From Phaeotremella fagi (Eukaryota; Basidiomycota; Tremellomycetes; Tremellales; Phaeotremellaceae): a stretch of DNA of 64,000 nt. Below, piece by piece: positions 9,763 to 34,246 of the stretch (the first letter of the stretch is position 1; every line of letters starts with the position of its first letter). The DNA lies in the NCBI GenBank assembly GCA_001599715.1, contig BCHU01000009.1:1240001-1304000 (forward strand), in the 5' to 3' direction. The position numbers and the translations under genes were made by a program. The notes under the pieces are model-generated. The model was not told where the DNA came from, did not search any database, and worked only from the letters and a program-made list of their open reading frames with translations.

Positions 9763-11950
9763 ATGATCAGACCGCGTCTACGACACTTTGTCGTTGCAAT
9801 ATTCTTATCAGCGTTGATCGCTGTCTACTTGCTTAACGATAGGACGAATTACGATTATTTAAATTGGGATGGTCTATCTTTGAAATCGAACATCGAAGAC
9901 TTTGAACAATTCGAAGGTTCTTATGAAAAGATCGAGTTGGATTTAGAAGCTGAACGATTAAAGTCGAATTTGGAACTGGTTGAAGAGAAAATCGAACAAG
10001 AGATACACTTAGGTATACCTGAAATCGTCGTTCCTCATGAAGCTGTCGAGCACGGTGGAATCACTCTGGTTGAGGATATAGAGATTGACCATATCTACCA
10101 TTCATATCCTAAATCTACTAAAGATAGTATTTGGTTAGATATCAATCGCGTTTCTAGGGAAAGAGGTGGTCATTGGGAAAGACCTAGTAGGGGTGCTTTG
10201 AGATCTCAAGGTGCTAAAAAATCCTCGAGGACGAATTTAAGAGATGATAAGAGATATGTGTTTTCTCAATTATTCGCTGGGTGAGTAGGATCAAGCTTGA
10301 TGTTAGATTCTTCCCACTGACGCGATCGATTCTTTAGTTGGACAAATCAAATCATTTCAACTATAAACCGTGCGTTTCCATTCCATCTTTTCATCTAGAC
10401 AGAAAATCTTACAGCTCATATAGTGATCGATATCGCCCTTCATGCAGATCGAATACCGATCTTAGCGTCTTTCTACACTGATCGAAGTCATCTTTCAGAT
10501 GACGATGCCGATATCGCAGTTTCAGAAATTTTCGATCTTCATCATCTATCTAAAACATTAGGCATCCCAATTGTTGAAGATTGGGAATTGAAACGTTCTG
10601 ATAGAACACCTCAACATTTGTATTCAGTTGTTTATGATGGTGAACATCCACAGGTTGGGCCTTCTGGCGAGAATCTGAAGGTTGGCGATATCATACACTC
10701 GGAGAGGGATACTGTGGTGGATCACTACTTCTGTTGGAGTTTCAGACAAACAAGAGCTCAGAATGGTCATTTCGCTGGTCATGTTGGTCAAATGAGTACG
10801 TTTTTCGTTATTGGATAGAGGATACCAGTTCTCGAAATCTGATTCTATTCTATTTAGCAATGCAATACACACCATTGACACTGGATTACTACGCCAAACG
10901 AGATTTCAACGAACCCTCAATACCTCTAACAGCAAATCTATTGAAAGAATATACCTACCCAAACGTTCCACCCGACGCCTTGGAAATTCTCGCCAACAAT
11001 TCCTTCCCAATTCCAAGTGATTCACCAGAAGAACATTTAGCTTGTATCGATTTTGTCTATTATTTCGTCGAGATTGGTGGACATGGAGAAGCTATTGGGG
11101 AATTCAGAGATGGAGTTGGGGCTTGGCAAAGAGTTGGACGTCATTTGAAATGGTCAAAGGGAATGGAACTTTTAGCTGAAGATTATTTACGTTACGCTTT
11201 GATGGTTCCTCAAGGTGAAACCATACCTCCAGTGAGTGGATCTTTGTTTGATCTGAATCCAATTCGAAAATGATATTTACCCGTTTTGAGTATTTGGCAG
11301 TTCACATTCGTCGAACAGGTGGGTCAAATTTACTTTCAAATTGAAAAAAAAAAGGGGAAACGTTAACATCGACTAGATATTGGTTGGGCAGACGTTGATC
11401 AAAGAACTTGGGGTGTTGCAATATTGAAAGCACTGCACAAAACCAAAGAAGAAAAAGGGATAGAAATTAAGCACGTCATTTTGGCAACTGATGAAACCAG
11501 TGAAGAATGGTTGTAAGTTTTATAAGCAATAGGTAAATCCGTTTAACTGAACCTTTCCGTTAGGGCTCCATTCCATGAATGGGGATTTCACGTTGTCAAT
11601 CATGACAAAGTGAATACCTCTGCACGATTGGGTGTCTGGTGAGTGAAGATTTGATGAACGGCGTGATCGAGACAACGCTGACGATACAGTTTAGGTTCCC
11701 AACGTTAATAGATTCTGTTATTTTTTCAAAAGGTAAAGCTTTCGTGGGATTAGGAGCTAGTACCAGTACGTTTGAATTGTCTTCATCTCTGGCCTGTAGA
11801 AGCATTTTCTGACCTGTTTCTTCAGTGTCGATTTTCGGAATGAGAAGGGCTGTAGCTTGGAACGATGGTGTGGGAGATTTAGTCAGAGGAGTCAACCCCA
11901 CCCCGGCGGATTGGCGATTCGACTGGCCACTGAATAGAGTTCAACGATGA
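9763..11950 (+). CDS. O-fucosyltransferase-like type II membrane protein (paralogue 1)
   Basis: Nine exons were placed: 9763-10280, 10338-10369, 10424-10795, 10858-11231, 11291-11318, 11377-11512, 11564-11638, 11695-11765 and 11826-11950. They total 1731 nt, or 576 residues, in frame. A short basic N-terminus and one membrane helix (about residues 9-24) give Golgi type II topology. The lumenal part carries AGWTNQII (compare the GGxxNQ loop of O-FucT proteins), AVHIRRTDIGW (compare the O-FucT HxRR(G/T)D motif), VILATDET and VGLGASTMSIFGMRR near the end. These suggest a GT-B GDP-fucose transferase of the PF10250 kind. That assignment rests on motif resemblance and on the adjacent GDP-fucose synthesis genes, so an uncharacterised GT-B family is possible. 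Three paralogues lie at 17132-19221, 32106-34246 and 58334-60172. Confidence 0.68.
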
Positions 11951-12594
11951 GGTGTTGAAGAAAGAATGAAGAGGTGTCCCCTGGTTGAGGACCTGCTCAA
12001 GTCATCTATGGATATAGAGATAGAATTGTAAACCGAGTTCATTGGCACATTCGCAGATACCATTTAGATGGGATTTTGTAGAAATGATCGTAATGCTGGC
12101 ACATCATATTAGACATTCAACTCATATACAATCTGACGTTTCGTGCATGGACCATCAGTTCATTTGACCAAGGTCCAACATCGCTATTTAAATTGATTTA
12201 TCCCATTGCCAACGGGACTGGCTGACTTTTGGTTTCGCACTTTCAACGAAATCCTCTTCCCAGTCGAGTGAAGTGGATCGACACCTTTCAGTTATGTGTA
12301 AAGAATGGGCAGAATGCATGCCTTGATGCGTGGATGTAGCTTGTAACTTGATTGCATTCGAGTAACCTCCACTTGATTGTTTGTTTAGTGCCATTTCCGG
12401 AACAGAATGTGGGGATCTACGACCAAGCCAGGCACGGATCCGGGTGATGGGCGCAAGCAAACGCAAGGGCGGGAAACTGGAACAAGTAAATGTCTGTGTT
12501 TTTTTGGCAGTTGTCGTTTGTTTGTCTTTTCTTATTTTCCCTCCTTTCATCTTCGTTTTATCATTCGACTCTCACACTCTAAACTATCTGCACA
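11951..12594. other. Intergenic region between two co-oriented glycosyltransferase genes
   Basis: This is the 3' flank of the O-FucT-like gene and the promoter of the GT61 gene. A pyrimidine-rich stretch (TTTCCCTCCTTTC, about 12536-12548) lies just upstream of the GT61 ATG. No gene is called. Confidence 0.5.
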
Positions 12595-14459
12595 ATGAGA
12601 CCCATAGTTAGATTGTCTCTCTATATCTCTTCAGCAATCTCAATCTTGTATCTAATCGGAAATCGAGGAACATCCCTCAATCTCAAAAGAATTGAAAGGT
12701 CTCTACTTAAACCTCTACCATCTCCTACACCTGATCATAATGGGTTGTACACTACCAAAATATTAGCCCATGCACCTGGATACACAGTGATAGAGAATTT
12801 GTAGGTGACTGAAGCAGAACAATGACGTCTGACACTCTGTAGATACTTTCAATCTGGAGCATATCTATATTTAACGTTCGAACCTTGGCATCTACCACAA
12901 CTTGATCTTATGATCAGTCGATCTGAACATTTTCATAAGAACGATTTTGAAGTTAATCAAATTTGGGCCATTAGAAATGCACCCGTTAGTCCAATTCCGA
13001 GGGAGGAGGATCAACTTGGTCATAGTATCAATTTAGAGAGGGCTAAACAGAGGTTTGGCGATCACGAAGTAATCGAGGGTCCTGTTGTGAGTCGTGACGG
13101 TATAGCTGTTGATGAGAATCGTTAATTTGACATCTTTTCTTGTAGTTGCTGACTGGAGACGCTCGATGTAAGTCCTTGCAAACACGCTCCGAGTTTTTGT
13201 ACTGACATTTCCGCTCCACAGTCGTTGATCATTGTACGTGAACAGACTTTCATGATACGATCCTACTGTCAATCAATATAAAAATTGACACTTCTCGTAG
13301 ACTATCATTGGATTGGAGAAGTATTCCTGGGTGGCTGGCGTATTTGGAATCACTTCTCTTGGGTTACCGGTTTCGCCCTCCCAGATTTCAAGACGATAGC
13401 TTTCACTCAATTAGTATCGAATGATGAATTCCGAGGAGATGACGTTGATTTATGGCAAGATAGAGCAGGTGCCAATGCTTGGTTCATGAAGCATTTCTTG
13501 TGAGTCTTCTGATGACACCAATTTTTTCATGCTCAAGCTACGTTGTTTACTCATCCATCTCTCATCTAGCCCCGACGCAGTGATCGAATCCAAAAACGAT
13601 TGGGATGCTCGTGATAAATCCAATAAGCTCTATCGTCTACCTTTGGTAGTCATAGTAGACAGATCATCAGGTCATCGAGGGCCATCCTCAGGTTGGAAAC
13701 CATGGGGTGACGTTATTAGGGTTCCGGTAAATGAAGAATATTTGATGGATTTGAGAGATAGAGTTATCGGACCAATTTCTCAGAAACCACCAAGAAAATT
13801 GAGAGTTACTTATCTATCACGACAAGATTCAGGTAGAAGTTTAAGACCTCTGGATCATGACAATCTAGTTGAGGCTCTTGAAGCTGAAGATAAAGCTGGT
13901 GGTATCGATTATAAGATGGAGATATTTAATGCTGGAATCCCATTTGAGGAACAGGTCAGAAAAATCGCGAACACTGATGTAAGCTCTGACAACCTCACAC
14001 TCTTCAGTAAAGCTGATAGACTTCAAACAGATACTTATTGGAGTTCACGGGAATGGTCTCACTCATGTCTTATGGATGTCACCAGGTCCTTACAAAGCTG
14101 TCTTTGAGATGCAGCCAGCTTGGTGTAACATTGTATGTCTCTTTTCTCTGTATCCATCAAATGATTTTGAATCATCGAACTGAATCGTACGATAGAACGA
14201 TTACGCTCCTTTAGCAATTGCAGCGGGAGTTCAACATTACATGGTCAGAGACACCTCGTAAGTACACCATTGGTTAAAAAGAACGAACGATACTGACCAA
14301 TACCTCAAACTCAGTTTCTGTCTACCTCTAGAATGTCCTTTCAGAGGTTGCGACGGTGACCAAGAAGATCCAGCTAGAAGTATAAATGTCGACACGATCA
14401 AAGTCCAACCTTCAGTTATCATCAATGAAATTCGTAGAATCGCTCAACAACATTTATAA
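12595..14459 (+). CDS. GT61-family glycosyltransferase (DUF563), copy 1
   Basis: Nine exons give a continuous 466-residue protein: 12595-12800, 12843-13086, 13146-13167, 13222-13233, 13301-13499, 13570-13978, 14031-14132, 14196-14257 and 14315-14459. The N-terminus (MRPIVRLSLYISSAISILYL) is a single membrane anchor, so a Golgi type II protein is expected. Family hallmarks are YHWIGEVFLGGW, DRSSGHRGPSSGW, VTYLSRQDSGR and above all ILIGVHGNGLTHVLWM, the conserved GT61 nucleotide-sugar region. A C-terminal cysteine pair follows (CPFRGC). GT61 enzymes transfer xylose, arabinose or GlcNAc in plants and animals; the fungal donor is not predictable. It shares its whole lumenal domain with the copy at 29696-31765. 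Confidence 0.85.
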
Positions 14460-14776
14460 TTCATGATCTAGGTCGGGTTATCATTGTTTCGACATTTTGC
14501 TATTTATTTTGGGTTTGTTTCAGTTTTTTGGTTTCTCCTTTATACCCCATCATATTGATCTATAAATGTGATGCGATTCTGTATAATTTCCTTAGCATCG
14601 TTAAAACTTCAAAACCAGTTCTGAAAACTTGTGTCGTTTTCGATTCATGATGATCACTTGAAATACGGCAATTCTTCACCATTTCGTCAAGTTGTCAACA
14701 CTTGAATCATTTCATAATCAATTTTGCATAGAATAATTACAAAAAACAAACCACACGAATGACCCCTTTTTTTATT
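14460..14776. terminator. Shared 3' region of convergent GT61 and ATIC genes
   Basis: This 317-nt AT-rich spacer lies between a plus-strand and a minus-strand stop codon. T-rich runs are present on both sides, as expected for convergent polyadenylation regions. No gene is seen. Confidence 0.5.
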
Positions 14777-16934
14777 TTAATGGTGGAACTAAATCGGGAC
14801 GATCAGTCAGTAGAAGAACAAGTATCAGGCAACTGTGGAATCCAACTCACCAATCTAAGTGGAGTATGAACGTAAACTTGTTCGTACTCATCGGCAGCTT
14901 TGATGCATTCAGCATCCATGACACTACCACCTGGTGCCGCAATGTATTTAGTACCACTTCTTTTTGTTCGATGAACGTTATCAGGGAAGGGGAAGAAAGC
15001 GTCTGAAGAACAACAGACGTTCTTTAATTCTGCCATATGAGCTGTTCTTTCCTCTTTAGTTAAAGGTGTTGGAACTTCATCGAACATGCTTTCCCATTGT
15101 TGACGTTCCCCACCGTCTGACTCGAAGACTTGACCGGTAACGAAGAGATCGATGGCGTTGGCTTTATCAGCCCTTTTGGTTCCCTTCTTGAAAGGGAGAG
15201 AGAGGACTCTAGGATGATGTCTTAACCACCAATTGTCGGCTTTGTCACCTGCAAGACGGGTACAATGAATTCTGGATTGTTGACCGGCACCTAAACCAAT
15301 GACTGTTCCGTTTAATGTGTAGCAGACTGAGTTGGATTGAGTGTATTTGAGAACGAGAGTAGCGACAACAAGATCGGTAACAGCGGATTTTGGTAACTAT
15401 CGAGGTGGGTCAGTTGGGTTTTCGATTTCGTCAGTGTGGAAAACCGAAACACACCTCCTTGTTCTTGGTGACGATGTTGGTGAAAAGACTTTCATCAATT
15501 TTGGCATCATTACGTTTCTGTTGAAGCGTGATGCCGTAGACTTGACGACTTTCGATATCCGCAGGAACGTAGTTGGGATCCATCTAAAGTTGGGTTCAGT
15601 ATCCAGTCTAATCCGTATACCAGTTTAAATCTACCTGTAAGACACAGTATTTACCACCTTTCTTCTTTTGTAAAATTTCGAGAGCTTCAGCTTCGTAACC
15701 AGGAGCGATGACACCGTCTGAGACCTCACGGGAGATAATCTTGGCGGTTGGCGTATCGACGATATGTGAAAGAGCAATGAAATCTCCGAACGACGACATA
15801 CGATCGGCACCTGACAAGTGAATAAGCTACAATCCCTGATCGATATAACTGACTTACCTCTGGCACGAGCGTAAGCGCAAGCCAATGGAGAAAGGTTCTT
15901 CAAATCATCAACACCAAAGACCTTTGCCTCACGTTCATCGAGTGGTAATCCTACTGCAGCACCAGCTGGTGATACATGTTTGAAAGACGCAGCGGCTGGA
16001 AGGGATGGAGTGAAAGCGGCGGAGAGTTCTTTGACAAGTGCCCAGGAGTTGAGAGCATCAAGTAAGTTGATGTAACCAGGGGATCCGGAAAGAACTAAAA
16101 CATTTGTTAGTGAAACGCGAGGATCGTGATCGTTACTCACCTTTAATTGGCATTTCTCCTTGTTCAACAAAAGCCTGAGCTGGTTTTTGATGAGGGTTTG
16201 CACCGTATCTCAAACCCAATCTTTGATAACCGACACCAGCATCTGCTTTTAGTTCTGACTCTGGACTAGCGTACATCTTTCTGAAATAATCGGCGATAGC
16301 TTCATCGTAAGCTTTAGTAGATTCGAAAGCTTTCAAAGCCAAACCACGTCTTGTCTCCTCTGTGACCTCCTTCTTCTCCTTCCACTCGGCGAGAATAACA
16401 TCGTAATCTGAAGGTGAAGAAATGATTGAAACTCTACCGTGATTTTTGGCAGCAGCACGAAGAAGAGTGACTCCACCGATATCAATATCCTCAATAGCAG
16501 CTGCTAAAGTACAATCTGGTTTTGAGGTTTGAAGAACGAATGGGTAAAGGTTACAGACGACCAAAGTGATAGGTGAGATAGAGTTGGTTGCGAGATCAGC
16601 TAGATCCGAGGGGATATCACGAGAAAGAATTCCACCGTGAACGGCTGGATGAAGGGTTTTGACTCTTCCACCGAGCATTTCTGGAGCGTTGGTGATAGAG
16701 GAGACATCTTCAATCTCTAATCCAGCTTCACGGATTTGTTTAGCTGTTCCACCACTTCCAAGGAGCCGAAATCCTAATCCCTTGAGTCCCTTGGCGAAAG
16801 GAAGAAGTCCAGTTTTATCGTAGACGGAAAGAAGAGCTAACAAGACAATGACGACGATGTGAGCTGACGTTGGTATTGCTTCTTGAAAACGAGAACAGAT
16901 GGTTTCACCTACCGATTGGAGCTTGAGATGTCAT
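14777..16934 (-). CDS. ADE16: Bifunctional AICAR transformylase / IMP cyclohydrolase (ATIC)
   Basis: This cytosolic enzyme carries out the last two steps of de novo purine synthesis: formylation of AICAR with 10-formyl-tetrahydrofolate, then closure to IMP. The short first exon encodes MTSQAPI and ends at a GTAGGT donor. The second begins [10 protein letters not shown], the start of the MGS-like cyclohydrolase domain ([26 protein letters not shown]). The transformylase half shows [27 protein letters not shown] (the catalytic Lys-His pair) and [17 protein letters not shown]. The C-terminus is completed by a last exon giving RLFHH, the usual ATIC ending, with the stop at 14777-14779. It is the only housekeeping gene inside the glycan island and shows no sign of damage. 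Confidence 0.95.
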
Positions 16935-17131
16935 GCTGGAATATTAAGAATGAAAGTTGATGATCAAATGTTAATTTTGGATGGACTTGAAATGGCCCAA
17001 AACTGAAAAAAAAAGGTGAATCAAGCTTGGGAAGAATAAATACACGTCATTATGGCTCTGTAATATTCGGTATGCAGTAGAATGATATTAACGAATGCAT
17101 CTACTGTTGACTACTTATAACCCAATACTTA

Positions 17132-19221
17132 CTACCTACTATCTAACTTCCAATTCCATGTCCAATCCCTCGGTGGTGTAACATGATCCTGTACCAATTC
17201 AGCCAAACCTCCATTCCAATCGATCACTCGTCGAGATGCGATCGCTGCCACTAATGGAAACATCAAGTCAGCCATGCACCGAGTTCTGAAGTGCCCAGAG
17301 TAAAGAGAAAGGGGTAAGTACTGTCATTTCACTCACTAGTACTAGCACCTAGTCCTACGAATCCTAGACCTTCGGCAAGAATCATGGAATCGATCAAAAT
17401 AGGTATCCTGGTAAAATTGCAACAAATCAACAGACGCATTGGAATTGATCGCCAAGCTTACCATTCACCAAATCGTTCTATCGTGCCTACTTTCTCGTGA
17501 TCTATAACCACCCAACCCCAATCATGGAAAGGTTTTCTTCAAGGACACCATCAGTAATCGTAAATCATCCAGAGATTGCCAAAGAACTCACAACCACTCG
17601 TGATCAGTTTCGTCAGTTGCCAAAACGACATTCCGTAAAGTGATGCCTTGCTCATCGCGAACTCTCTTCAGAACACGAAGTACTGCCATTCCCCAATCCT
17701 CTTGGGTTATCTGACGCCAACCGATATCTTGAGCACAAAAGTGTCAGGGTCATAAATGTAAGGGGAATAAACGAAATGACCTACCTGTTCGTCGTATGTG
17801 TATTGACAAAAACTACGAGAAGTCAGACTTGATCAGTTTTCAGTGCATAATAGAATACCTTTGGTATCGCACTCTCGGGTGACAAATCAAACGCGAAACG
17901 TAGATAATCGTACGCCAATTTTTGTAATGAAGGGTTAAACCTCATATACTTCCCTACCCTACCCCACGAACCAGTTCCGGAGGCATACTCATCTGTAACT
18001 CCTCCGTGTTTACTATCTCCAAGAAAATAGAACAAGAAATCCACGCAGGATAGGTTATCCTCTGGATAATCCGTCGGTGCATTGAAATTCTGTTGCTGTA
18101 GAATTTCTAAAGAATTCTTCGGTACGTTAGGGTAACGATACTCTTTAAGCATATTCGCCAAAAATTCGATAGCTGGATTATAAATTTCATCACGATAAAG
18201 AATGTTTCGGGGTAATGGAGTGAACTCCATTTCTTCAACTTATAAGTAGAGATTGAAATTGTAGAGATGACTTTACTCACCATGATTGGCAATATGATAA
18301 GCCAAATGACCTGGTTCGCCCTTGGTTTGTCTCCAACTCCAGCAATTGTACGTATCAGTCTCAACATCTGCCGTTGCGTGAACTACATCTCCAACTTTCA
18401 ATTGTTTCCTTCTTCCACCATCTGATAGCTGCGGTTCGTCTCCATCGTAAATAGCATAAGAAAGCTGTGGTGGAGTACCGGTCGAAACCTTCAATTCCCA
18501 ATCCTCAACAATGGGTATACCCAAAGATTTGGATAATCGAGGTAGATCGAATATTTCTGACACCGCCATTTCGTATTCAAATCCGTAAAAATGAGTCGAG
18601 TGTGGATAAAATGAAGCTAAAATCGGTATACGTCCTGACCGAACGGCTAGGTCGATGACTGTATCGCGGATCAGCTACAATACGATAGATTTCTACCACA
18701 GAAATGTTGACAACGTATGATAAGGAAGGTAGACTAACGATTGATCTCGGACATGATTTGATTATGGATTCTATAGAGTCTGTCAATATTACAAAGTCAC
18801 GTAGTGAGATATAAAGCAGAAATTCAAAGACTCACCCCCCATACACTTGTGAGAAGATGTATTTCTTATCAGACCAAAGATTATGTCGAAAAGAAGACTT
18901 GGGACCTTGTTGTCTCAAAGCTCCTTTACTCGCACGAGCTGTCGTATCGAAAGCCCGATTTACAGCAACATCTAACCAAATCGTTTCCTTATCCGAAGTA
19001 GGATACGATTGCCATATCCCTTCAGAAGGATCTCGACGTCTGGCATGAACTGATTCAGCTAACTTAATATACGTTTCTATAATCGCAGCATCGGTTTCTG
19101 TGACGTTCCATTGTTGAGCATTTGATACTTGGCTAGACGAGGGGGATGATATGTGATAGTATAAGGTGAAGACGCAGATTATCGTCAAAAGAAGAGGAAG
19201 ACGTCGAGAAGATCTTGGCAT
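17132..19221 (-). CDS. O-fucosyltransferase-like type II membrane protein (paralogue 2)
   Basis: This is the same family as the gene at 9763-11950. Exons resolved include 18836-19221, 18739-18779, 18281-18658 and 17859-18238; a 28-nt exon then encodes SIHIRRT and further short exons run to the stop at 17132-17134. The N-terminus (MPRSSRRLPLLLTIICVFTLYY) is a single membrane anchor. The catalytic region has QVYGG..NQIM, NLIDLAVRSGRIPILASFY, SEIFDLPRLSKSLGIPIVEDWEL, HIRRT and a RRVIDWNGG ending. Its intron positions match those of paralogue 1 at the GG/NQ loop, at N|LID, before the HIRRT segment and after RRT, showing common descent by duplication. It is followed downstream by ATIC on the same strand, about 200 nt away. 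Confidence 0.68.
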
Positions 19222-19649
19222 TCTTCACTTCTTCATACCAACGAATAATCCGTAAACTCCCAGTATCACTATTTCCTCCAGCCTTGAAAACTGTGCGCTG
19301 AGTTTGAGAAAAGGAAGTAGTCAGTGTGTATCGCCAAAGTCAAATGAGCAAGGGAGAAGGTTGAAATATACATCGGCTGGAATTAGGTTTTATTTTTCAA
19401 TGCGGGGCACGCGTTAATTATGGCTGCTATGGAGGTGAAAACATGCTGCAATTTTCTTACAGTGATTGACATTCCAGAACGTTTGCAATCATTGAAAAAG
19501 AATCTGATCTTCTTTTACGGACGCAAGGAAAACAGAATGGGCGAATCTACGAAAATACAAGCCTAACATTCAGTGCACATTTCACAAAGCTCTTGCGTTA
19601 AAATTCAAGGTCATTCATACATGCATCGTATGAGAGTGTAGCCATCTAT
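19222..19649. other. Intergenic region, upstream of O-FucT-like paralogue 2
   Basis: This lies between the ATG of the O-FucT-like gene and the stop of GDP-L-fucose synthase, both on the minus strand. No gene or repeat is seen. Confidence 0.5.
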
Positions 19650-21614
<1,965 letters not shown>

Positions 21615-22955
21615 ATGGTAAGCTGAGACTTTCGTTGTGCTGATTGAAACCTTTCTGACACTATAAACTTTTCTAGTCTCTTGGCGATAACTTAGCTGCC
21701 ACCATGCGTGCTTCCTACCCTGCTCCAGAGGAGTATTTCAAAAGAAAAGTCGCCTTAATCTCTGGTATTACAGGTCAAGATGGTTCTTATCTTACTGAGC
21801 TTTTGCTCTCAAAGGGATACGAAGTTCATGGGTGAGTTTTGTTTCCATTTCGTGTTAGCATTTCCAGGTCGCATGCTCATTCCCTTCAAGTATCATCCGT
21901 CGATCTTCCTCGTTCAACACGGGTAGATTGTCTCACTTGTACAAAGATCCACACGACAGTCCAAGATTGAAGCTTCATTACGGAGATCGTAAGTCGTTAC
22001 ATTACTGCAAACGATCATCATAGTAATCCATCATCAGTTACCGATACAACCAATCTTGTCTACATCATCTCTCAAATCTTGCCATCTGAGATCTACAACT
22101 TGGGTGCTCAATCACATGTCAAAGTCTCTTTCGAGATGGCCGAGTACACTGGTGATGTCGATGGTCTCGGTACTTTGAGACTTCTTGATGCCATCAGAAC
22201 ATGCGGTCTTGAGAAGCACGTTCGATTCTACCAAGCTTCAACCTCTGAACTTTACGGTAAAGTTGTTGAAACTCCTCAATCAGAAACCACTCCATTCTAC
22301 CCAAGATCTCCCTACGGTTGTGCTAAACTTTACGCCTACTGGATCGTTGTCAACTACAGAGAATCATACGGTATGTTCACCTGTAACGGTATTCTTTTCA
22401 ACCACGAATCTCCAAGACGTGGACGAACATTCGTCACTAGAAAAATCTCAAGAGCAGTCGCGGAGATCTCTGCCGGTAAGAGTGAAACTCTCTACTTGGG
22501 TAACATCAACTCTCAACGTGATTGGGGACATGCAAAAGACTATGTTGAGGGTATGTGGAGAATGCTTCAACACGACAAACCAGAAGATTTCGTTTTGGCC
22601 ACAAACGAAACGCATGAAATCAAAGAATATATTGAAAAAGCTTTCGCTGTCGTTGGTATCACACTCAAATGGGAGGGTGAAGGTATAAATGAAACCGCTA
22701 CCAACGTCGCTACTGGCAAAGTCGTTGTCAGAATCGATGAGAAATATTTCCGTCCTGCTGAAGTTGATCTTTTGTGGGGTGACTCAAGAAAAGCAGAGAG
22801 ATTACTTGGTTGGAAGAGACAGTGCAGCTTTGATCAATTGGTCAAGGAAATGGTTGAAGCCGATGTCAAGGGTGAGTTGTTTTTTACCAGGTTGGAACGA
22901 GCATTGACGTCTTCACTTTCTAGCTGTCGCATCCCTCGTTGAAGATCAAAATTAA
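21615..22955 (+). CDS. GMD: GDP-mannose 4,6-dehydratase
   Basis: This is the first committed step of GDP-L-fucose synthesis: GDP-mannose to GDP-4-keto-6-deoxy-D-mannose, with NADP as bound cofactor. The sequence is very clear: [19 protein letters not shown] (TGxxGxxG), [48 protein letters not shown] (catalytic Tyr and Lys), [28 protein letters not shown] and [21 protein letters not shown]. The first exon appears to be the ATG alone, or nearly so (21615-21617), followed by GTAAGCTGAG; an internal ATG (MRASYP) about 30 nt into exon 2 is the alternative start. A final intron after DVK joins to [10 protein letters not shown] and the stop at 22953-22955. Length is about 370 residues, as usual. Confidence 0.97.
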
Positions 22956-23712: not shown

Positions 23713-26651
23713 ATGTCTTCACCAAAAACTGAGCGAACACACGCTCGAAATCGATCTGGTGGTTCTGGTCAAGCGTTTCTTTCACCGAATCCAGGGAGTT
23801 CCGTTCGATCATCTCCCAATTCGAAGGGTTTTGCTTCAAATGAAGATTCACCTATTCAACCTACGACACCTCCTGCTGTTTTCCCTTCCATCAGTATCAC
23901 TAGTCCAGTTTCTCCAATGAGGAGTGAGATTGATAGAGATAAATCGTTATCGGCCACGGCACATGGCGGCAACAGCGTTATTGGTTTCAGTTCACCCGGG
24001 ATGGATGACACACCTTCAGCTTCTTCTTCTTCATTCTCCCCTCGTGTAGATGAATCTGATCGTCGTCGTGGTCAATTTCAAACCCAGTCATTCTCACATA
24101 CCATTGAGGGTGGAAATCCAATAACTCCTAGAAATACACATCGGTCCCAAGTCCCATCGAATCTAGGTGCTTACAACGTAGAAACTGGTTACACTCAGAG
24201 CACCAGTCCTGTCCCTTCATTTTCAAGGTTAGGTCATGGTTTGATTTACGATGGAACCGAGGACGACGACGACGATAAAAGAAAATCCAGAGGTTATTGG
24301 AGATTTTCAACAATCTTGAAAAGATATAGAAGATTCATCTTGGCCAATCCGAAGAGAAGACGTAGAATTCAAACCGCAATTTTAACTTTTATCGTCTATC
24401 TACTTTTGATCAGGCCCTTCTTCAATCTCGCTCCTCCAGGTTGGAAGTCCAATCCTTTGAATGATACAGAAAAGGAGAGAGATCTTGTCGAAGAATCCTT
24501 CCCACTTTATGATCCAAGGAAACATTCAGAGTGGACACCGCCATCTGCGAAACGGTCTAGAACTGGCCAATCCAAAAGAGACGCGGCTGGTGGGAAAGGA
24601 GAACTAAGTACTTCCTCGGCGGCTAACGTCGAGAAATCAGAAAATGGCCATCCGATTACCAACGGTCTGTTATCAACCGATACCTCATTAACAACTCATC
24701 CTATTTATGATTTAATTAATCAATCAAAGGATCAATGGGATTCTCTATTAAAAAGACAGAGCAGAACTCTAGCTCTCGCTGCTTCCAACTATCAAGGTAG
24801 ATATGGTAGACCACCACCAAAAGGTTTCGACAAATGGTGGCAATACGTTTGGTGAGTAGAGCCGTGGTGACGAAAATATAAAAGTATATCTTGACTGACT
24901 TTCCGAATGCAGTGATCATAATATCACCTTGCCTGATGAATACGATCAAATCAACAAAGACGTGTACTACTATCGTGCTCTCTCTCCTCCAGATTTGAAC
25001 AATCGTATCAAGAGAGCTTCGAAAGAGGATTTTACTTTTACGTTCATCGTTGAAGACGGTAAAGTTTCCAACAAAACTTCCTACGACCCAAAAGTACATC
25101 TTGGAGGTAATGATAGATTGAACGATCAGTATCAATTGTTGAAACCAATTGCAAAATACTTGGGCGATTTAGAAATGGTCTTTTCAGTCCATGATACACC
25201 TCAGGTGTTTACTCCTTTTTCGCACAAAAATGAAATGGTTGATTTGATTGAGGAAGGTGGTTGTAAGTCAACACTGGGCTTACTGTTTGTTTCCTATATC
25301 CGAAATCTAACCTTGTTCTTAGATCTGTCCGATGAAACCATTGAAGATGTATCAGATTGGGGAGGTGCTTGCACCTTCTCCTCGCCCGGCAAAAGATACA
25401 ATTACAATTCGAACCCCGATACAACAACGACTCATAAAGCCAAAACTTTTGTTCGATCATTGCTTTCAATGTTGAATCTCTGCGATCATCCATACCAAGT
25501 ACCGCTTCATGGAGTCTTGGCATATAAAAAACCGAAGCCAACGGGGTTTAGACCAATAGTCTCTTTGTCCAAAACAATCTTTCACTCTGATCTTTTATCT
25601 GTTGCAGCTGTTTCGTGGATACCTGCATCTGAAGCTCCAAAAATTCCTTGGTCAGATAAGATTTATGATAAACTGTTATGGCGAGGCGGTAACACTGGAA
25701 TGCATTATGGCACCAAAGGTATCCCATGGAGAGATTCACATCGTGTTAGGTTGGTTAGAGATTTCGCTGTTGGTTTACCAGGTAAACCTAATACGGAAAT
25801 CAAAAAGAGATCTTTGGAAACTGTCACCATATTACCACCTGGTGATTCGATTCCTGGTCCCATTGGCAAGAAATCTGAAACGTTATCCAGACTCAAAGCA
25901 AATGAATACTATATGGATGTTGGATTCACTGGTAAACCTATCCGTATGTTTTTTCATGATACATCTTTGACATTTCAAACTGAGTCTGCTCTCAGAATGC
26001 ACCAATCCACCACCTGATACGACGTGTGACGATTTAGACAGAGAGTTGCAATTCAACACTCCAATGATGAATAGAACTATGCAAGCCAAACATAAATATA
26101 TTCTCGATGTGTGAGTCATTCGGATCATTCTTGGCATTGTCCATCCTCGCTGATTCAAGTAGTGACGGTAACGCTTGGTCCAGTCGTTTTGAACAACTCC
26201 TTCTATCTGGTTCTCTGATTTTCAAGAGTACAGCAATGCGTGAGTGACCAGTTGACTTTTCTCTTTGTGTTGTATTGTTAAACATTATCACAGCTGAATG
26301 GTGGTCTGAGCGGATTCAACCATGGGTACATTATGTTCCTATTCAAACCGATTATTCCGATGTATACGATACCATAGCTTTCGTAAGTTTTTTTTTCAGT
26401 TGGGATTTGGCGTGACGATCAGGTTAACGAGTGTTCAGTTCCGAGGCGACACCCATGGTCGTGGTGGGGAAGAAGAACTCGCGAGAGAAATAGCGGAAGC
26501 TGGTAGACAATGGGCAGAAACGCAATGGAGAAAAGAAGATATGATCGCATACATGTTCAGGTTATACCTTGAATGGGCTAGACTGGTCAGTCCAAAGCGT
26601 AAAGAAATGAACTTCCATTATCTCCCTGAAATGGAAAGGAGAAGAGTGTAG
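23713..26651 (+). CDS. GT90 glycosyltransferase, CAP10-like
   Basis: Seven exons (23713-24851, 24913-25262, 25323-25943, 25996-26110, 26163-26239, 26294-26382, 26439-26651) give 867 residues in frame. About 200 Ser/Pro-rich cytosolic residues precede a membrane helix (TAILTFIVYLLLIRPFF, about residues 220-236), then a lumenal domain. CAP10-domain landmarks are NYQGRYGRPPPKGFDKWW, DHNITLPDEYDQI, DKLLWRGGNTGMHY, WRDSHRVRLVRDF and, split by an intron, KYILDVDGNAWSSRF, then FKSTAMPEWW. The family includes the cryptococcal capsule protein Cap10 and the xylosyltransferase Cxt1, which work on surface mannans and glycolipids in the Golgi. The unusually long N-terminal tail may serve in sorting. Donor sugar is probably xylose by family precedent, but this is inference. 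Confidence 0.9.
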
Positions 26652-27130
26652 AGGGAAATGTACGGAAATTGGCAAGAACAAACGATTTGTAGTGTACACA
26701 TTTTTATGAAACAGATGACATCAAAACGGATAGCCAATAGTTATGAAGCTGATGGTTAGAAGTATTGAGAAGATTTCAAGTTGGATTTTCCATCTGTTGT
26801 TTGTTTTCATTTCCTCACCGATTGTGTCCATGACTTGGGAAGTTGGCAGACACGTGAAATAGAACAGTCGAAGAAATTCTGGTATTATTTGAGGATGACG
26901 AACGATGCCGTAAAAATCACCTAAGGTTTACAAAAGGTTATGTAACCTTAAATTTGTTCCCTTATGTAACCTTAGATTTTTCGGAAACCAACTTTCTACG
27001 CAGCTGTCAGACTATAATGGTGTTAAAAATAGACTACTTCTGTTTCCACTCAACTGAATACCACTCACTCACTTGTCAAATAGCTTGACCATTGACTGGT
27101 AGATCAGATTAAATCACACAGCCGTTTACC
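26652..27130. other. Intergenic region, contains a repeat cluster
   Basis: This 479-nt spacer lies between two plus-strand genes. It has no open frame of interest. It carries the compact repeat described at 26921-26975. Confidence 0.5.
26921..26975. repeat. Paired direct and inverted repeats of TTATGTAACCTTA
   Basis: Two near-identical direct copies of TTATGTAACCTTA (about 26938-26950 and 26962-26974) follow an inverted half-copy CTAAGGTTTA at 26921. AAAGGTTATGTAACCTT in the first copy is itself nearly palindromic. The set could fold as a hairpin or act as a tandem binding site. Confidence 0.7.
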
Positions 27131-28997
27131 ATGCTCTCAAGGTCTATATTTTCCTCCAACTTACGAAGTGGCAGACGACCTTCAAACAAGATTTTGGCTC
27201 TTGGGATCACGTCAATCGTCTTTGCGTTGTTCTTTTTACAGTCCCGAAAGGATTCAAATTCAAAACTGTAAAATGGAACAGGAGAATGGAAGAAAGTCAC
27301 TGACGCATTCGGTTTAGGTACACTGCTGATACCTCTGGAATTTTATCAACTTTTTTTCAATTATCTCTTCCCCATCAGTCCATTTCCTGTCACCAGACGT
27401 GCTTTCCTGATTACTACAATAGTCCTGGAATGATTAGATGGGGTTCAGCAATAAACGATACCCGCTGGACTGTATTTTCGACTGCGTCAGATGAGTGTCT
27501 GGTTGATTCAAGTCCTGTTCGTTCAAGTCAGTTGGCTTCTGATCCAGACAGCTGGATGACTTCCATTCCGCAAGATCATTTTGCTCCAGATTTCATGAAC
27601 TATATAGCATCTGGTGTGGATGCTAGAGGACCTTTCGAAGATTCTGATTTGATTAAATCGGTTGTAGACAGACAGATACTACTTATCGGTGAGATTATCC
27701 CTCAGTTTGAATTTGGAATCGTATGGACTTACTTTGAACCTCATCATCGCAGGATCCAGTCGTGTGTTTGAATCTCCACCTTGATGTATCAGAATTACCT
27801 AGCTGACTAATACAGATGATCGAAACAATGTTCGTCCTTCGCCTTTTCACTTTTTAGAATTTTTTGCAATTGACCACCCTTCATGCAGGCTCAATACTTT
27901 TGTGATCACGCTGAAGGAGGGAAAGTGAGTGAAATTCTCTCAACTCTGGAGGAATGAGATTGCTAAACCAGCGCCTTCTTAAAAGTATGAGTCATGGGGT
28001 ATGTCCTTGCTCAATATGGCTGAGATTGTTCACTAGCTGAGGCTCCCAATTAGGTGGACATCAGGGTGGATCTTGCTTTGTCCCATCGCTCAATCTGACT
28101 ATTATACATTGGTTTCTGTGGGTGTCAACATTCTCACAAGGGTCTCCAAGTCTCAATAAACTTACGCTACTTTTTGTAGATATGGAGTTGTCGATGAAGA
28201 ATATGAATGGTATAGAGAAGGCGAAGAACGACCTGTGAAATTCGAAGGTAGAATTCCAGTTTTACTTGGGGAAGCTACGAAACGAGGTATCATCACGAAA
28301 CCTGATTTAATATCGATGACGAGTTTATTTTGGGATGAAGCTTTTTTAAATGAGGTAAGGAAGTTTGCTCCTAAACCGCAAAACAAGATTGTCTTTAACG
28401 CTACTTAGATATACGCCCATTCAAATTTGGTGGTCGAATATAATGACCCGTACAGATACGGCGATATCAAATGGCATAGTTATAGATTGATGGAATTGAT
28501 TCTTTTCATACGCCAAACTTTCGGTGAAAATGTTCCTCTGATGTATAGAGTCAGACAACATCGTCTAGGTAATTCTGGTAGTGGCAAATTTAAAATCTTT
28601 CAGCTTGATCAAGGTAATAAGGATACCTGCAAGAGGTTAGGAGTCAAGTGGGTTCTTATTTACATCGTCATGCAAGGCGGATTACTATCCGTTGTTTCTC
28701 CTGACATTGGACTTAGGCTTTTTTCTTGGGCGGAACTATTAGAAGGGTTCACAGCGTTAGTAATCGTTTCTCCAACTCTTGATCATTTTCATTGATACTC
28801 ATATTGACAATACGACTACTCAGATATTCCGATCAAGATCAACATTTCCCCTTCGGACCAACGACGTGGCTGTTTGGAGAGTAAGTTCTGATTCAACGAG
28901 TCCAAAAGTTGACTGTCGCAGTATGATTTTGTTCTATTTACATCAAGCAGTTTCTGGTTGTTGGGACTGTATGGATAGTACCACTGCGCGTTGTTAG
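27131..28997 (+). CDS. SGNH/PC-esterase-like type II membrane protein
   Basis: This is a secretory type II protein: a basic N-terminus, then a membrane helix (ILALGITSIVFALFFL, about residues 21-36). The lumenal region reads CFPDYYNSPGMIRWGSA and DRQILLIGSNDRNN, where intron splicing joins the last segment, then AQYFCDHAEGG. After that come KPDLISMTSLFWDEAFLNE, YRVRQHRLGN, RLFSWAELLEG and DQDQHFPFGPTTW. This order (G-x-S block, central PDL..SLFWD, late D..H) matches the PC-esterase/SGNH class that includes Cas1-type polysaccharide O-acetyltransferases and plant TBL proteins. The first block is GSND rather than the usual GDS. At least nine introns are needed, and the junction after exon 1 is not resolved. 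The C-terminus is Cys-rich. Function is inferred: O-acyl transfer to, or removal from, a glycan. Confidence 0.6.
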
Positions 28998-29695
28998 CCT
29001 GAAGGGGATTCATCAGGACGAATAGAATAGTCGTAGGATTCGATGATCAGCATGCAGATCTGGTGCCACCCATTAACCACATGCTTTTCATGCACTATGA
29101 TTATAGACCGGGAGTCGATAAGAATATTCGATAGGTCAGACAACTTCTTTGTACAAGTAACAACCAACAAGTCTTCATGGACCTCCTCCTACCGTCAGTT
29201 GCAGTTTTGTGTATGTTTTCCAATATCATTCCCAGGCCAGAGCGTTGTCAAAGATGACAATCCCTGCTTTTACCACTGCGATCGATGTTCGACGCCTCAA
29301 AGTCTTTCAACGAGGTTGATCACTCAAATATCTCTGTGCCATCAGATACTTCTGCCACAAATTCAGGTTGATTGACTGAGTGTGAGCCTTTCAATTGAAG
29401 TGTGCGCAGTAGATAGAGGTCACAAGACATTTAATAGTACTCAGGTCCTCAATCACAACACGCCACGTTAACTTAAAGTATACTTGCAGTGGCATTCGAA
29501 CGCGTCCAGCTCAGGGACTTGGATATGCTCTCAATTCCATGGCTTGTGGATTAAGAATTTACAACTTAGACTTCGTGGTACATTATCTTTTGAGTCACTG
29601 TCTGATCTAACCTTCGAAATCTTACTTACGCATCATCTACTCGAGTCGACAACAACCATATTTGGTGTAGGTTTCTGGTGATTCAATAAATCACT
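28998..29695. other. Intergenic region upstream of the second GT61 gene
   Basis: This is a 0.7 kb spacer. Short frames such as 29043-29375 and 29484-29681 (+) have no family resemblance, and I see no repeats. Confidence 0.45.
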
Positions 29696-31765
29696 ATGCC
29701 TTCCTCACCAACAGTAAATAAACCAGCACCATGGAACCAATTATCCAAACCGTTATCATCCCATTCATCAATAGGTAATCGTTTGCAAAGAATTCAGATC
29801 TCTTTCAGACGCTCGCTTTACTTGGCTAGACGGAATCCATTGAGGGCTGCTCTGATTATATTCTTTTTCCTTTTCTCATCTTCGTTCGTTTGGATAATCA
29901 TTCGACCTTTGACGAATATCCCAATATTCCCTACTGGTTTCGATGGTCCTTCTGGTGGCTCAGGTCATGGCAACACCTACAATTATGGCATTAGATCCAC
30001 ATCTAAAGAAACTCCGGTCATCTCAAACATGAATTTGACTACATTTTTGGCCCATCAACCTGGGTTTTCAGTTATTGAGAATTTGTGAGTCAAGGATCTA
30101 CTTCAGAGACAGTGTTGTAAAGGCTGATCATTCAATCAATAGATATTGGCGAAATTACACCTACATCATAGTCACAGATCAACCTTGGGCCGTACCACGT
30201 CTTGATCACGTTGCCAGTTTCTCAACTAACAATGGTAAACCAACTGGCGGTCATATCTCTGCCGCTTTATACTCAATCAGAAACTCTCCAGTCAGTCCTG
30301 AAGTCAAAGAGAAGAACCAAGTTGGATCAACCGTCTCTTTAGATGAGGCTTTGGAGATGATCAATTCTGCCGAAGAATTGCCAAGTCCAATGGTATGTGT
30401 TTCATGTTATTCTATATGTGATTGATGGTAACTAATGTTGTAATGCAGATGATCAACAATGATGACAACTGTAAGTGTTTCACGTAGGAAAGTTACGTTT
30501 TCGCCATTTACTGACGATCACCTGTAAATCAAAAGTCGTTAATCATTGTAAGTCTACGATTCATTCAACATTCTTATCTACGATTTCTGACCCCATTTAT
30601 AGTCTACCATTGGGTTGGTGAAACTTTCCTTGGTGGTTGGAGAGTATGGTCAAATTACGCTTGGAGAACTGGAACTGTACTTCCAAAAGTCAAGACTGTA
30701 GCTTTTTTGAAACAATGGAGAAAAGAAGATGCTCCACCTGGACATGCTGGTGGTGATGTCTGGGAAGATAAACCTGGTGCCAATGAATGGTACACTAAGA
30801 AATTCTTGTAAGTGTTAATTTGTCACATACTTTTAGAATGTTGCAATACTCACTCTCAACCCAATTCGTAGCCCCGGTGTAACCATCGAAGATCGAAAGG
30901 AATGGCATGCCCGTGCTGCAACTAATAAAATCTATCATATCCCGTTGGCAGTTATTTCAGACAGAGCTGGAGGTCATCGAGGTCCTTCCGCAGCCTGGAA
31001 ACCATGGGGTGACGTTTTACGTCTGCCGGTCTCGCCAGACTGGTTTGTCAATTTACGAGACAGAGTTCTTGATGGTTACAACGGACCTGTTTCTTTGAAA
31101 CGTGGTAAATTACCAAAAGTAATGTACCTATCGAGACAAGATAGTACTAGACGTTTAGTTCATTCTCATCACGATAAATTACTTGAAGCTTTGGAAAATT
31201 TGGCTGCCGAGGGTGTCGTTGATTTTGTTCTCGAGCAATTCGATTCAAAAACTCCTTTCGAGGATCAAGTTGCCAAAGTCTCAACTGTTGATGTAGGTTT
31301 TTTTCGTTGTGTTTTTTACTCAAGGTGGAGGATTTACTGATTTATATTCTCATAGATCTTGATCTCAGTTCATGGCAATGGTCTTACCCACACTCTTTGG
31401 ATGGATTCGTCACCGATCAGTGCGGTTTTCGAAATGCAACCCGAAGATTGTACAATTGTGAGTGTGATTGTTTGACTGCAAGACTCAAATTGTTGATCAT
31501 AAATTCAGACCGACTACAGTCCACTCGCAATCGCAGTTGGAATTCAACACTACATGGTACAAAATAAAGGGTAAGTCAAAAGTGACACTGTGACAACTAT
31601 AGTCGACTGACTCTTTATCTCCTTGGAAATAGATTCTGCAAACCAGAAGATTGTGGTCAAAGAGGTTGTACATCAGGCCATCCAAAATCAATCAACAGAG
31701 ATGATATAGAAGTGGACCCTCAAATGATTGTTTATGAAATTAAAAAACTCATTGCTCAACGATAA
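29696..31765 (+). CDS. GT61-family glycosyltransferase (DUF563), copy 2
   Basis: This is a paralogue of the gene at 12595-14459. A longer cytosolic tail (about 50 residues, MPSSPTVNKPAPWNQ...) precedes the membrane helix (about residues 51-69, LIIFFFLFSSSFVWIII). The lumenal domain aligns throughout: LAHQPGFSVIENLYW, YHWVGETFLGGWRVW, SDRAGGHRGPSAAWKPWGD, VMYLSRQDSTRR, ILISVHGNGLTHTLWM and a Cys-rich tail (CKPEDCGQRGC). Short exons around VNHY and the intron after the VD/TD before ILI occur at the same places in both copies, so they arose by duplication. The stop is at 31763-31765. It likely sits in the Golgi; the donor sugar is unknown. It converges on the O-FucT-like gene at 32106-34246. Confidence 0.85.
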
Positions 31766-32105
31766 TATGAAACAGGGGTTTCTTATAGATTGAAGATTGA
31801 TTCGTTGGGTTAAAATGACCGGTTTCTTATTTTTTCGTGTGGTTAGATACAATATTATTCTTGATTTAGGTTATGCAAGAATTGAGTTATTTGATTGATT
31901 GTATCTTTTGTGCAGATGAACAGGGAGCGAGCCTCCTGTACTGCGAAACCGACTCGTATAAATTCGGCCACCTTTGACAAGCACGAAGAGTAGACCTCAA
32001 ACAAAAGTCTGAGGATAGAACATGACGAGTACGGCGGGACAGAAGGGCAACTCAAGGTCGATTTTACTCAATCACGATTCATTCTCTAAGGGATACCAAT
32101 GATGT
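31766..32105. terminator. Shared 3' region of convergent GT61 and O-FucT-like genes
   Basis: This 340-nt AT-rich spacer lies between two facing stop codons, with T-runs near both ends. The frame at 31855-32055 (-) has no support. Confidence 0.5.
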
Positions 32106-34246
32106 TTAATATTCATCTAAATCCCATGTCCAAGTCCATCCAGTTAAATCTGGTTTATCCCTCTCATAAACCAAACGCATGAGACCCCCGTTCCAATCTA
32201 TGACTCTTCTTCCACCCATGAATGACACTAATAGTAAAAGTAAATCGTCAGTCCTCGCGAGGCTGTTCGCTACGGTTTCAACTCACTTGTACTATCCCCA
32301 AGCCCAACAAAGGCACTTGATTTAGAGAATATTATGGAATCAATCAATGCTGGGAACCTGTTGGTCGATGTTTCAGTGACGAGTCACCATGATTATCTTC
32401 TTCTCTCACCATGGGCCATATTTTTCAACAGTCTTCACTTTATCGTGATCAACGACATGCCAACCCCACTTCTTGAACGGTTGCCTAAAGGCCAGTTCAG
32501 TTTCAGCTTTCCCATTGAACGATTCCCATCGAAAAACCACTCACAGCCATTGCTGGTTTGTCTCATCTGTGGCCATGATGACGTGACGAATATTTTTTCC
32601 TTGGGTATCGGATACATCATTCAAAAGTTCTGATGCAGCGAGACCCCATTCGTCTTGTGTTATTCCAAGACGACCAATGTCTTGGAAGAAAAGAATCAGA
32701 AATGGGATTCATAAAATTCCATAGAAGAAAGCACCACTCACCGGTTCGTCTGATATGGACGGCCATGAACTAAAGAATATAAGTCAGTCTATCGTCATGC
32801 TGTAAGATACTTGACTCACTGGAGGTATATCCATCTCTGGGGATAAACCAAAAGCGAATCTTAAATAATCTTCAGCTAAAAGAATTAAACCGGGATTGAA
32901 CTTGAGATGCTTGCCAACCCTCTGCCAAGTTGGTCCACCTTCCATCCATTCATCCATATTCAGATTACCATCACCGACATCGACATAATTGAACAAAAGG
33001 TCGACGCAAGCAACATCGTCATCTGGACTACGACTGGCTCTTTCAAGTGAAAATTTCTTGATAATCTCTTCTGACCCTTCTGGGATATCAGGATGATGAT
33101 AACTTTTTAGGAATTTTGAAGTCGCTTGGAGTGATGGTCTTGTGATATCACCTTTGTAAAATGTGCTATATGGGATCGGAGTGTATTCTTGACCTTTTGG
33201 GGTTCACATCAATTTCTTCATCTTTCAATCAAACGGATCTGAAAGACTTACTTAGGAAATTCATGTGCATACCAAAGTGACCATTACGATTTTCAGGTTG
33301 ACGCATACTCCAGCAACTCATTACATCCTCTTTCATCTCGTGATAAGGTGTTGAAATGATTGGATCACCAAGATGTAATTGGCTGCCATCGGGAGTAGAT
33401 TGTGGGTTTTCACCGTCGTATGGACTGATTCTTAAACGTTGAGGTGTTCGACCATTTGCCTTGAGTTCCCATGTTTCAACGATTGGCGTACCAAGTCTTT
33501 CAGACAGATATGGTAAATCAAAAACATCTGACATTGCTATTTCATCACTTTCAGCTCCAAAATGAGTCGAATCAGTGTAGAAGGATGGAACGATAGGGAT
33601 TCGACCACTGAGCTGAGCGAGATCGATGACTGAGAGTAGTAGAATTTCGAGCAATTAGCGTGCAATCTAGTTTGGATCCATCTAACTCACGATTAGCCGC
33701 ACAAATGATTTGGTTGTGCCAACTATTGTTGTGATCAGTATGATAATTATAATGAACTCATCTCCCTGAGAGGACCTTTACTCACCCAGCAAACAACGAA
33801 GAATATAGATATTTCTTATCATCCCTCAAATTTTCTCTGAAAGAAGGTTTTCCTCCTTGTGACCTCAAAGCCCCCCAACTCGCTCTTTTAGTGTCCCTAA
33901 TATGTTTATTTGTTTTTGCGATGTTGGCCCAGATAGTTTCTGGATTCACGTCTTTATAAACTTTCCATACCTGACCGTCGTGTTTCTTACGTCCATGATT
34001 GACGGAAACAGGTGCGTTACCATGACTGACTCTATTCTTTACGATTGGAGTTTCATCCTTTCGCAAATCTTCTATCGAAGTCGTAGCATTTGAACTAATC
34101 AAGTCACCTGTCTCGATAAAGTAGATCGTGATAACTGCTACACCTAGTAAAGCTAACCAAGTAAGTGATCGTGAAAAAGTTCGACGCATTTGAGGCGGTA
34201 AGAATAGCCTTCTACGACGCGTCTTGTCCTTTTCGCGGAGATTCAT
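32106..34246 (-). CDS. O-fucosyltransferase-like type II membrane protein (paralogue 3)
   Basis: This is the third intact member of the family. The start at 34246 gives a strongly basic tail (KDKTRRRRLF), then a membrane helix at about residues 28-44 (SLTWLALLGVAVITIYF). The lumenal domain has SSLFAGWHNQII, NLIDLAQLSGRIPIVPSFY, SDVFDLPYLSERLGTPIVETWEL, DIPPFMAVHIRRTDIGRLG, HVIMATDETNQQWL and a FMGGRRVIDWNGG ending; the stop is at 32106-32108. The introns at AN|LID, at PP|F (before HIRRT) and after RRT coincide with those of paralogues 1 and 2. Lumenal topology next to the GDP-fucose genes suggests a role in Golgi fucosylation, which is inference. Confidence 0.68.

Follow-up and report, generated by a model that had tools for sequence, protein, structure and literature searches.

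Clustered glycan pathways in fungi and bacteria

The galactosaminogalactan (GAG) cluster of Aspergillus and other ascomycetes comprises, in the excerpted accounts available, five co-regulated genes that bring nucleotide-sugar, glycan-building and glycan-modifying enzymes together. Here we describe a locus of the basidiomycete Phaeotremella fagi that clusters the same three kinds of enzyme around a different sugar. Within a stretch of 64,000 bases (the window; contig C9, BCHU01000009.1, positions C9:1240001-1304000), both enzymes of de novo GDP-L-fucose synthesis lie in a run of predicted glycosyltransferase and esterase-like genes, here termed the island. Where the GAG cluster encodes, so far as those excerpts describe it, a UDP-sugar epimerase, a synthase, a deacetylase and hydrolases, the island encodes the enzymes of GDP-fucose synthesis together with many anchored transferases and SGNH-like proteins, and no processive synthase was recognised in it by reading. 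An earlier note on this DNA held that fungal polysaccharide genes usually do not cluster, a generalization to which the GAG cluster, as excerpted, is an exception. We propose that the island is a lineage-specific Golgi pathway that fucosylates a surface or secreted glycan, which may also be acylated, a reading whose chances of being right or wrong we consider evenly balanced.

Bacterial capsule and O-antigen loci place gmd/fcl beside glycosyltransferases and acyltransferases, as the island does. It differs from them in its spliced genes, its Golgi-type anchors and the housekeeping gene that interrupts it, and no flippase, polymerase or export system was recognised in it. The glucuronoxylomannan (GXM) genes of Cryptococcus and Tremella share the GT90 and PC-esterase-like families with the island; amongst them are CAP10, a GT90 protein, and CAS1, of the PC-esterase kind. 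To our knowledge the CAP genes do not sit together with genes for GDP-fucose synthesis, and no CAP59/CAP60-like gene was recognised in the island by reading.

In the part available, a 2023 survey (PMC10481521) proposes that fucose serves as a nutrient in Dikarya and as a building material in early-diverging fungi; it also states that some Dikarya can probably make GDP-fucose. The O-FucT neighborhoods described there are housekeeping, dolichol-related or secondary-metabolism in character, as opposed to a GDP-fucose island. Fucose is mentioned in the cryptococcal biofilm matrix in the accessible portion of PMC6162697, and the main text of a paper on Cryptococcus and Kwoniella (PMC11185503), as retrieved, has no word starting "fucos". 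No fungal cluster of GDP-fucose synthesis with glycosyltransferases was recognised, by title and abstract start, among the papers listed by the literature searches, in agreement with the earlier note, which knew of none of such composition. The island is real and unusual: clustered fungal glycan pathways are already known, its GDP-fucose composition appears to be new, and its product is predicted only.

A ten-gene core near the end of a contig

Genes were modeled in the 22.6 Mb assembly (24 contigs) with a custom intron-aware finder, whose training set was the window plus 20 further stretches of this genome. Several genes were completed by hand, and all models are predictions, those of SGNH_27, SGNH_60 and OFT_F being the least certain. 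The median intron is 55 bases long; the introns, and transporter relatives that are mostly basidiomycete, bear out a fungal source. The core of the island spans positions 9763-34246 of the window and contains ten genes, nine of which are glycan or nucleotide-sugar genes, the tenth being a purine gene. O-FucT-like proteins are abbreviated OFT, GDP-mannose 4,6-dehydratase GMD, and GDP-L-fucose synthase GFS; lengths are in amino acids (aa). The core order is as follows.

9763-11950, plus strand: OFT_A, O-FucT-like type II protein, 576 aa, 9 exons; PF10250 29.4 bits; hydrophobic stretch at residues 6-24
12595-14459, plus strand: GT61_a, glycosyltransferase family 61, 466 aa; PF04577 48.9 bits
14777-16934, minus strand: AICARFT/IMPCHase (ADE16/17-like), the sole non-glycan gene within the span; PF01808 and PF02142
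17132-19221, minus strand: OFT_B, O-FucT-like type II protein, 534 aa; PF10250 26.6 bits
19650-21202, minus strand: GFS; Epimerase 140.3 bits; PDB 4e5y 388 bits
21203-21614: divergent intergenic region of GFS and GMD, 412 bases, genes head to head
21615-22955, plus strand: GMD, 373 aa; PF16363 516.9 bits, profile positions 1-332 of 332
23713-26651, plus strand: GT90 (CAP10/POGLUT superfamily), 867 aa; PF05686 85 bits, cut-off 24
27131 to about 28970, plus strand: SGNH_27, SGNH-hydrolase-like by reading, exon structure partly uncertain
29696-31765, plus strand: GT61_b, glycosyltransferase family 61, 531 aa; PF04577 41.8 bits
32106-34246, minus strand: OFT_C, O-FucT-like type II protein, 558 aa; PF10250 31.8 bits

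The nine-in-ten count was made in the earlier note and is confirmed by the intron-aware models and Pfam, as are its two GT61 genes and one GT90 gene, all of which exceed their Pfam cut-offs. Several boundaries and one identity had to be revised: OFT_A, OFT_B and OFT_C end near 11950, 17132 and 32106, respectively, and the purine gene is AICARFT/IMPCHase. Since C9 (1,334,013 bases) terminates in two TTAGGGGG-type repeat units, which are telomere-like as read at the contig end, the core (C9:1249763-1274246) probably sits 60-84 kb from a telomere, two units being thin evidence.

GDP-fucose supply

GMD and GDP-L-fucose synthase convert cytosolic GDP-mannose to GDP-L-fucose. The best PDB match of the window GMD is 5in4, a GDP-mannose 4,6-dehydratase (538 bits), in alignment with which the STSE and YxxxK motifs can be read. 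GFS aligns over residues 17-322 to the solved GDP-L-fucose synthase 4e5y and has the YxxxK motif; an intron of about 35 bases (about 20405-20445), placed by eye, explains ten residues absent from the model. Pfam and PDB matches thereby bear out the synthesis pair named in the earlier note. A whole-genome PF16363 search returned one strong match, the window GMD at 420 bits, with a runner-up at 152 bits, and all nine matches of the GFS genome search fall within the window GFS gene. Because each enzyme was found once in the genome, this locus appears to be what de novo GDP-fucose depends on, barring a diverged copy missed by the exon-by-exon search.

Midway through the region that GFS and GMD share, at 21385-21404, lies the near-palindrome CGTGTCCTGCTGAGGACGCG, matched on both strands. 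Allowing as many as 3 mismatches, the window contains this site only (0.22 expected).

A local family of O-FucT-like proteins

An OFT_C genome search places at least seven OFT-family loci in the genome, six of them within the last 85 kb of C9. Those outside the core are listed here, with positions on the window scale continuing past its end.

58487-60172, plus strand: OFT_D, O-FucT-like, diverged clade; PF10250 27.2 bits; model without N-terminal transmembrane segment
C9:1322706 (window scale 82.7 kb): OFT_E, from the OFT_C genome search
near C9:1324980 (window scale 85 kb): OFT_F, rough model, from the same search
C1:1748447-1752400 (region, transporter included): seventh OFT, the C1 copy, from the same search

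OFT_A, OFT_B, OFT_C and OFT_E share 42-50% identity with each other and 32-34% with the C1 copy, while OFT_D and OFT_F form a separate clade. Micro-exons of 32 and 28 bases are common to OFT_A, OFT_B, OFT_C, OFT_E and the C1 copy, which are therefore descended from one spliced gene. A profile of six relatives (OFT_A, OFT_B, OFT_C, OFT_D, the C1 copy and a Rhizoctonia protein) finds POFUT2 first in the PDB (4ap5 alignment, E 0.0046), and the equivalents of POFUT2 R294, D371, S387 and T388, numbered from residue spacing, are invariant in all six sequences. The roles of R294, D371 and S387 in O-FucTs are taken from the available part of PMC10481521, according to which these three residues are well kept across fungal PF10250 subfamilies and E54 is found only in subfamilies C and G. 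The OFTs resemble the divergent fungal O-FucTs of that excerpted survey in keeping R294, D371 and S387. Because E54 is absent we call them O-FucT-like, not POFUTs. Of the earlier note's three O-FucT-like genes, what stands is a divergent family with POFUT2 as its best solved relative; only OFT_C exceeds the curated PF10250 cut-off of 31.5 bits, OFT_A, OFT_B and OFT_D falling below it.

Glycosyltransferases and their anchors

Both GT61 proteins pass the PF04577 cut-off of 27 bits, and GT61_b has EOGT as its best PDB match (E 2.1e-6). The best PDB match of GT90 is POGLUT1 (E 4.5e-14). Anchor-like hydrophobic stretches occur in OFT_A-C, both GT61s and GT90, and none of these modeled proteins carries an HDEL/KDEL endoplasmic reticulum (ER)-retention end. 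The type II membrane topology claimed for the locus is thus borne out in part: the stretches are present, that of GT90 lying at residues 222-240. On these predicted features the proteins would look as Golgi type II transferases do.

Candidate nucleotide-sugar transporters

A transporter gene lies in the left flank, in the interval -29.7 to -25.0 kb on the window scale (PF03151 60.2 bits, cut-off 30). A protein search that scored 8000 candidates found at least 133 relatives at E 1e-3, mostly basidiomycete, and several of those listed are named GDP-fucose transporter, the names being automatic annotations. The four best relatives among the matches listed come from Mrakia, Saitozyma (two) and Phaffia, all Tremellomycetes. 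In a FastTree phylogeny of 35 sequences (33 selected from the matches listed and two from this genome), the transporter groups with Phaffia and Mrakia (support 0.96), and the Phaffia protein is named GDP-fucose transporter by its source; a protein with that name occurs in another clade of the tree as well. In the same tree, six Kwoniella sequences group with Naematelia, apart from Mrakia, Phaffia and Saitozyma, a topology that hints at lineage loss of a GDP-fucose-transporter-like gene in Kwoniella and Naematelia. The second transporter of this genome belongs to a different clade and lies within about 0.9 kb downstream of the C1 OFT on the same strand, a direct adjacency with a chance of about 5e-4 given an estimate of 7,758 genes. 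With the C1 pair and the C9 candidate, OFT and transporter genes are found close together at two separate sites.

SGNH/PC-esterase-like proteins and the wider island

SGNH_27 has no Pfam match; it contains GSSHDR and DQDQH blocks by reading, and the existence of two paralogues, on C2 and C5, argues that the gene is real. Further proteins of this kind lie beyond the core.

43563-45913, minus strand: SGNH_43, SGNH-like membrane protein by reading; hydrophobic stretch at residues 89-107; weak wider-island member
60491-62501, plus strand: SGNH_60, PC-esterase-like (TBL/Cas1 type), model partly uncertain; PF13839 24.0 bits, E 4.4e-5
62543-64000, continuing to about 64237 in the flank, minus strand: SGNH_62, PC-esterase-like; PF13839 26.6 bits, E 7e-6

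Neither SGNH_60 nor SGNH_62 reaches the PF13839 cut-off of 27, SGNH_27 has no match to that family, and SGNH_43 matches no Pfam family. SGNH_60 also has a weak PF01697 (GT92) match (20.6 bits, under the cut-off of 23), and it is the sole relative of SGNH_62 elsewhere in the genome at E 1e-3. Past the window, GT18-like genes lie at 65.9, 70.2 and 80.8 kb on the window scale: the second scores 29.9 bits, above the cut-off of 28, the third 19.1, below it, and the first is assigned by its similarity to the second. An SGNH-like gene at 86-87 kb, identified by reading, has no meaningful Pfam match. On the other side, a second GT90 gene (69.1 bits) occupies the same left-flank interval as the transporter, 35-40 kb left of the core. 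The island is therefore larger than first reported: its core stands, and same-family genes extend it to the contig end and perhaps 35-40 kb leftward.

Genome searches with PF10250, PF05686 and PF13839 ran exon by exon and left the island's own members unlisted, so they show no absence. A PF00852 search returned no match anywhere, controls included, and is hence no proof of absence.

Several neighboring genes are recorded here for completeness. A HIS7-like gene at 35163-37131 lies about 20 kb from AICARFT/IMPCHase, with glycan genes in between; AICARFT/IMPCHase uses AICAR, which the HIS7 reaction releases. Just past the core, at 37473-40819, is the exocyst gene Sec5 (PF15469 270.4 bits on the first part of the model). 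By reading, a protein at -19460 to -15882 on the window scale has repeated WSC-like domains and a glucanase-like C-terminus, and at 76611-80336, in the telomere-side flank, a long serine-rich, secreted-looking protein begins with a PIG-L-type-deacetylase-like N-terminus.

Clustering beyond chance

For comparison, 14 further 10-kb stretches were taken at round positions picked by the author; they yielded 48 control gene models, none of which is similar at E 1e-3 to any of the 13 island proteins compared. Their largest exons match 40 Pfam families; among the 25 listed there is no glycosyltransferase, and aldose 1-epimerase is the one family related to sugars. Five unrelated families within nine genes of GMD would arise by chance at 6e-12 on a rough estimate of independence, or at 3e-6 with paralogues collapsed and an assumed 3% rate of glycan genes; both figures rest on independence, lower-bound locus counts and assumed rates, and are orders of magnitude only.

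The hexamer ACGCGT occurs in 7 of 19 island promoters and 3 of 64 controls. It was rejected as a shared promoter motif, since half of 300 label permutations give an equally good best k-mer.

A proposed fucosylation pathway and the evidence against it

The proposed Golgi fucosylation pathway would begin in the cytosol, where GMD and GFS would make GDP-L-fucose from GDP-mannose. A Golgi transporter, for which the gene 35 kb leftward is the candidate, would import the GDP-fucose, and in the Golgi lumen the OFT paralogues would add fucose to acceptors under construction by the GT61, GT90 and GT18-like enzymes. Old local duplications would have produced the OFTs and, with them, several linkage specificities. 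Cas1-type proteins of Cryptococcus O-acylate, and on this model the SGNH/PC-esterase-like proteins may O-acylate the product. By analogy, the product would most likely be the fucosylated side chains of a Tremella-type heteropolysaccharide, either secreted or capsule-like; in the portion available, PMC8355462 describes fucose in the GXM-like polysaccharide of Tremella, the genome of which encodes a putative GDP-L-fucose synthase. A more ambitious version of this proposal, which we advance tentatively and regard as short of an even chance, is a subtelomeric, capsule-locus-like fucose island of about 20 glycan genes that would combine the sole recognised source of de novo GDP-fucose, Golgi import, an expanded local fucosyltransferase clade and acyl-modifying enzymes.

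Several observations weigh against a dedicated fucosylation pathway. With single sequences, the PF10250 matches of the OFTs are marginal, OFT_C alone finds only unrelated PDB entries (E 0.22 or worse), and POFUT2 is reached through the profile only, at that same E 0.0046. The position of the catalytic E54 of POFUT2 is Ala/Gly in the OFTs, within A/G-G-x-x-N by eye. Outside this genome, relatives among the matches listed come from Rhizoctonia only (7773 candidates scored with OFT_C, 7995 with the profile), in a protein database that contains Kwoniella, Saitozyma and Naematelia proteins; a patchy distribution of OFTs among fungi is just a lead, because the sensitivity of the word-based search is limited. 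A separate PF10250 gene, above the cut-off at 38.4 bits and outside the island family (C6:87871-88380), implies that GDP-fucose may also be spent elsewhere. Among solved structures, the left-flank transporter comes closest to a GDP-mannose transporter (E 2.1e-6), and its gene and OFT_A have 14 gene models between them. GT61, GT90, GT18-like and SGNH_27 relatives also occur on other contigs or far along C9. The core is interrupted by AICARFT/IMPCHase, and it is separated from the telomere-side genes by HIS7, Sec5 and a succinyl-CoA-ligase-like gene. Finally, the promoter k-mer search yielded no significantly enriched motif (permutation fraction 0.5).

Alternative explanations

The strongest rival retains the pathway and changes its target, such that the island would O-glycosylate proteins. 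The nearest solved relatives of its transferases, POFUT2 (O-fucose), POGLUT1 (O-glucose/xylose) and EOGT (O-GlcNAc), point this way, enzymes of these kinds being known to O-glycosylate cysteine-rich repeats in animals. Those animal enzymes are mostly soluble ER proteins, whereas the island transferases have anchor-like stretches and no ER-retention ends. Moreover, capsule and wall enzymes are among the members of the broad GT90 and GT61 families, and the nearest PDB match is biased by what the PDB contains. EGF motifs are also absent in fungal hyphae according to the accessible part of PMC10481521. Taken together, we consider a protein target unlikely, if deserving of serious attention.

A second explanation, improbable in our judgment, denies that the island is a functional unit: it would be a chromosome-end hotspot of duplicated glycosyltransferases that work on no common product, with GMD and GFS lying nearby through chance or an inherited linkage. 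Much of the locus could be read so, given that the six OFTs are mutually paralogous, as are the two GT61s, that telomere-like repeats end the contig, that housekeeping genes are interspersed amongst the glycan genes, and that the promoter search was negative and relatives of several island families lie elsewhere in the genome. Duplication, however, does not gather the unrelated GMD, GFS, OFT, GT61, GT90 and SGNH families, and the proximity of OFT and transporter recurs at a second site, on C1. The identity of only 42-50% amongst OFT_A, OFT_B, OFT_C and OFT_E likewise counts against a hotspot, since it probably reflects long-standing proximity. A third possibility, a secondary-metabolite cluster whose small-molecule product is decorated with fucose or other sugars, is very improbable, because, despite the link of O-FucT subfamilies E, F and G to secondary metabolism in the available part of PMC10481521, no synthase for polyketides, peptides or terpenes was recognised among the gene models of the window and its 30-kb flanks (Pfam on selected models, the rest by reading), and anchor-bearing transferases are ill-suited to cytosolic tailoring.

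Implications

The island is a case of physically clustered glycan genes in a basidiomycete. One locus that makes and apparently spends GDP-fucose is a clean genetic handle in the little-studied field of fungal fucose biology, and it offers uncharacterised transferases (OFT, GT61 and GT18-like), some with a predicted donor. If the more ambitious version of the proposal is true, a subtelomeric island would make a variable fucosylated surface glycan, and would contradict the view of fucose as mainly a nutrient in Dikarya.

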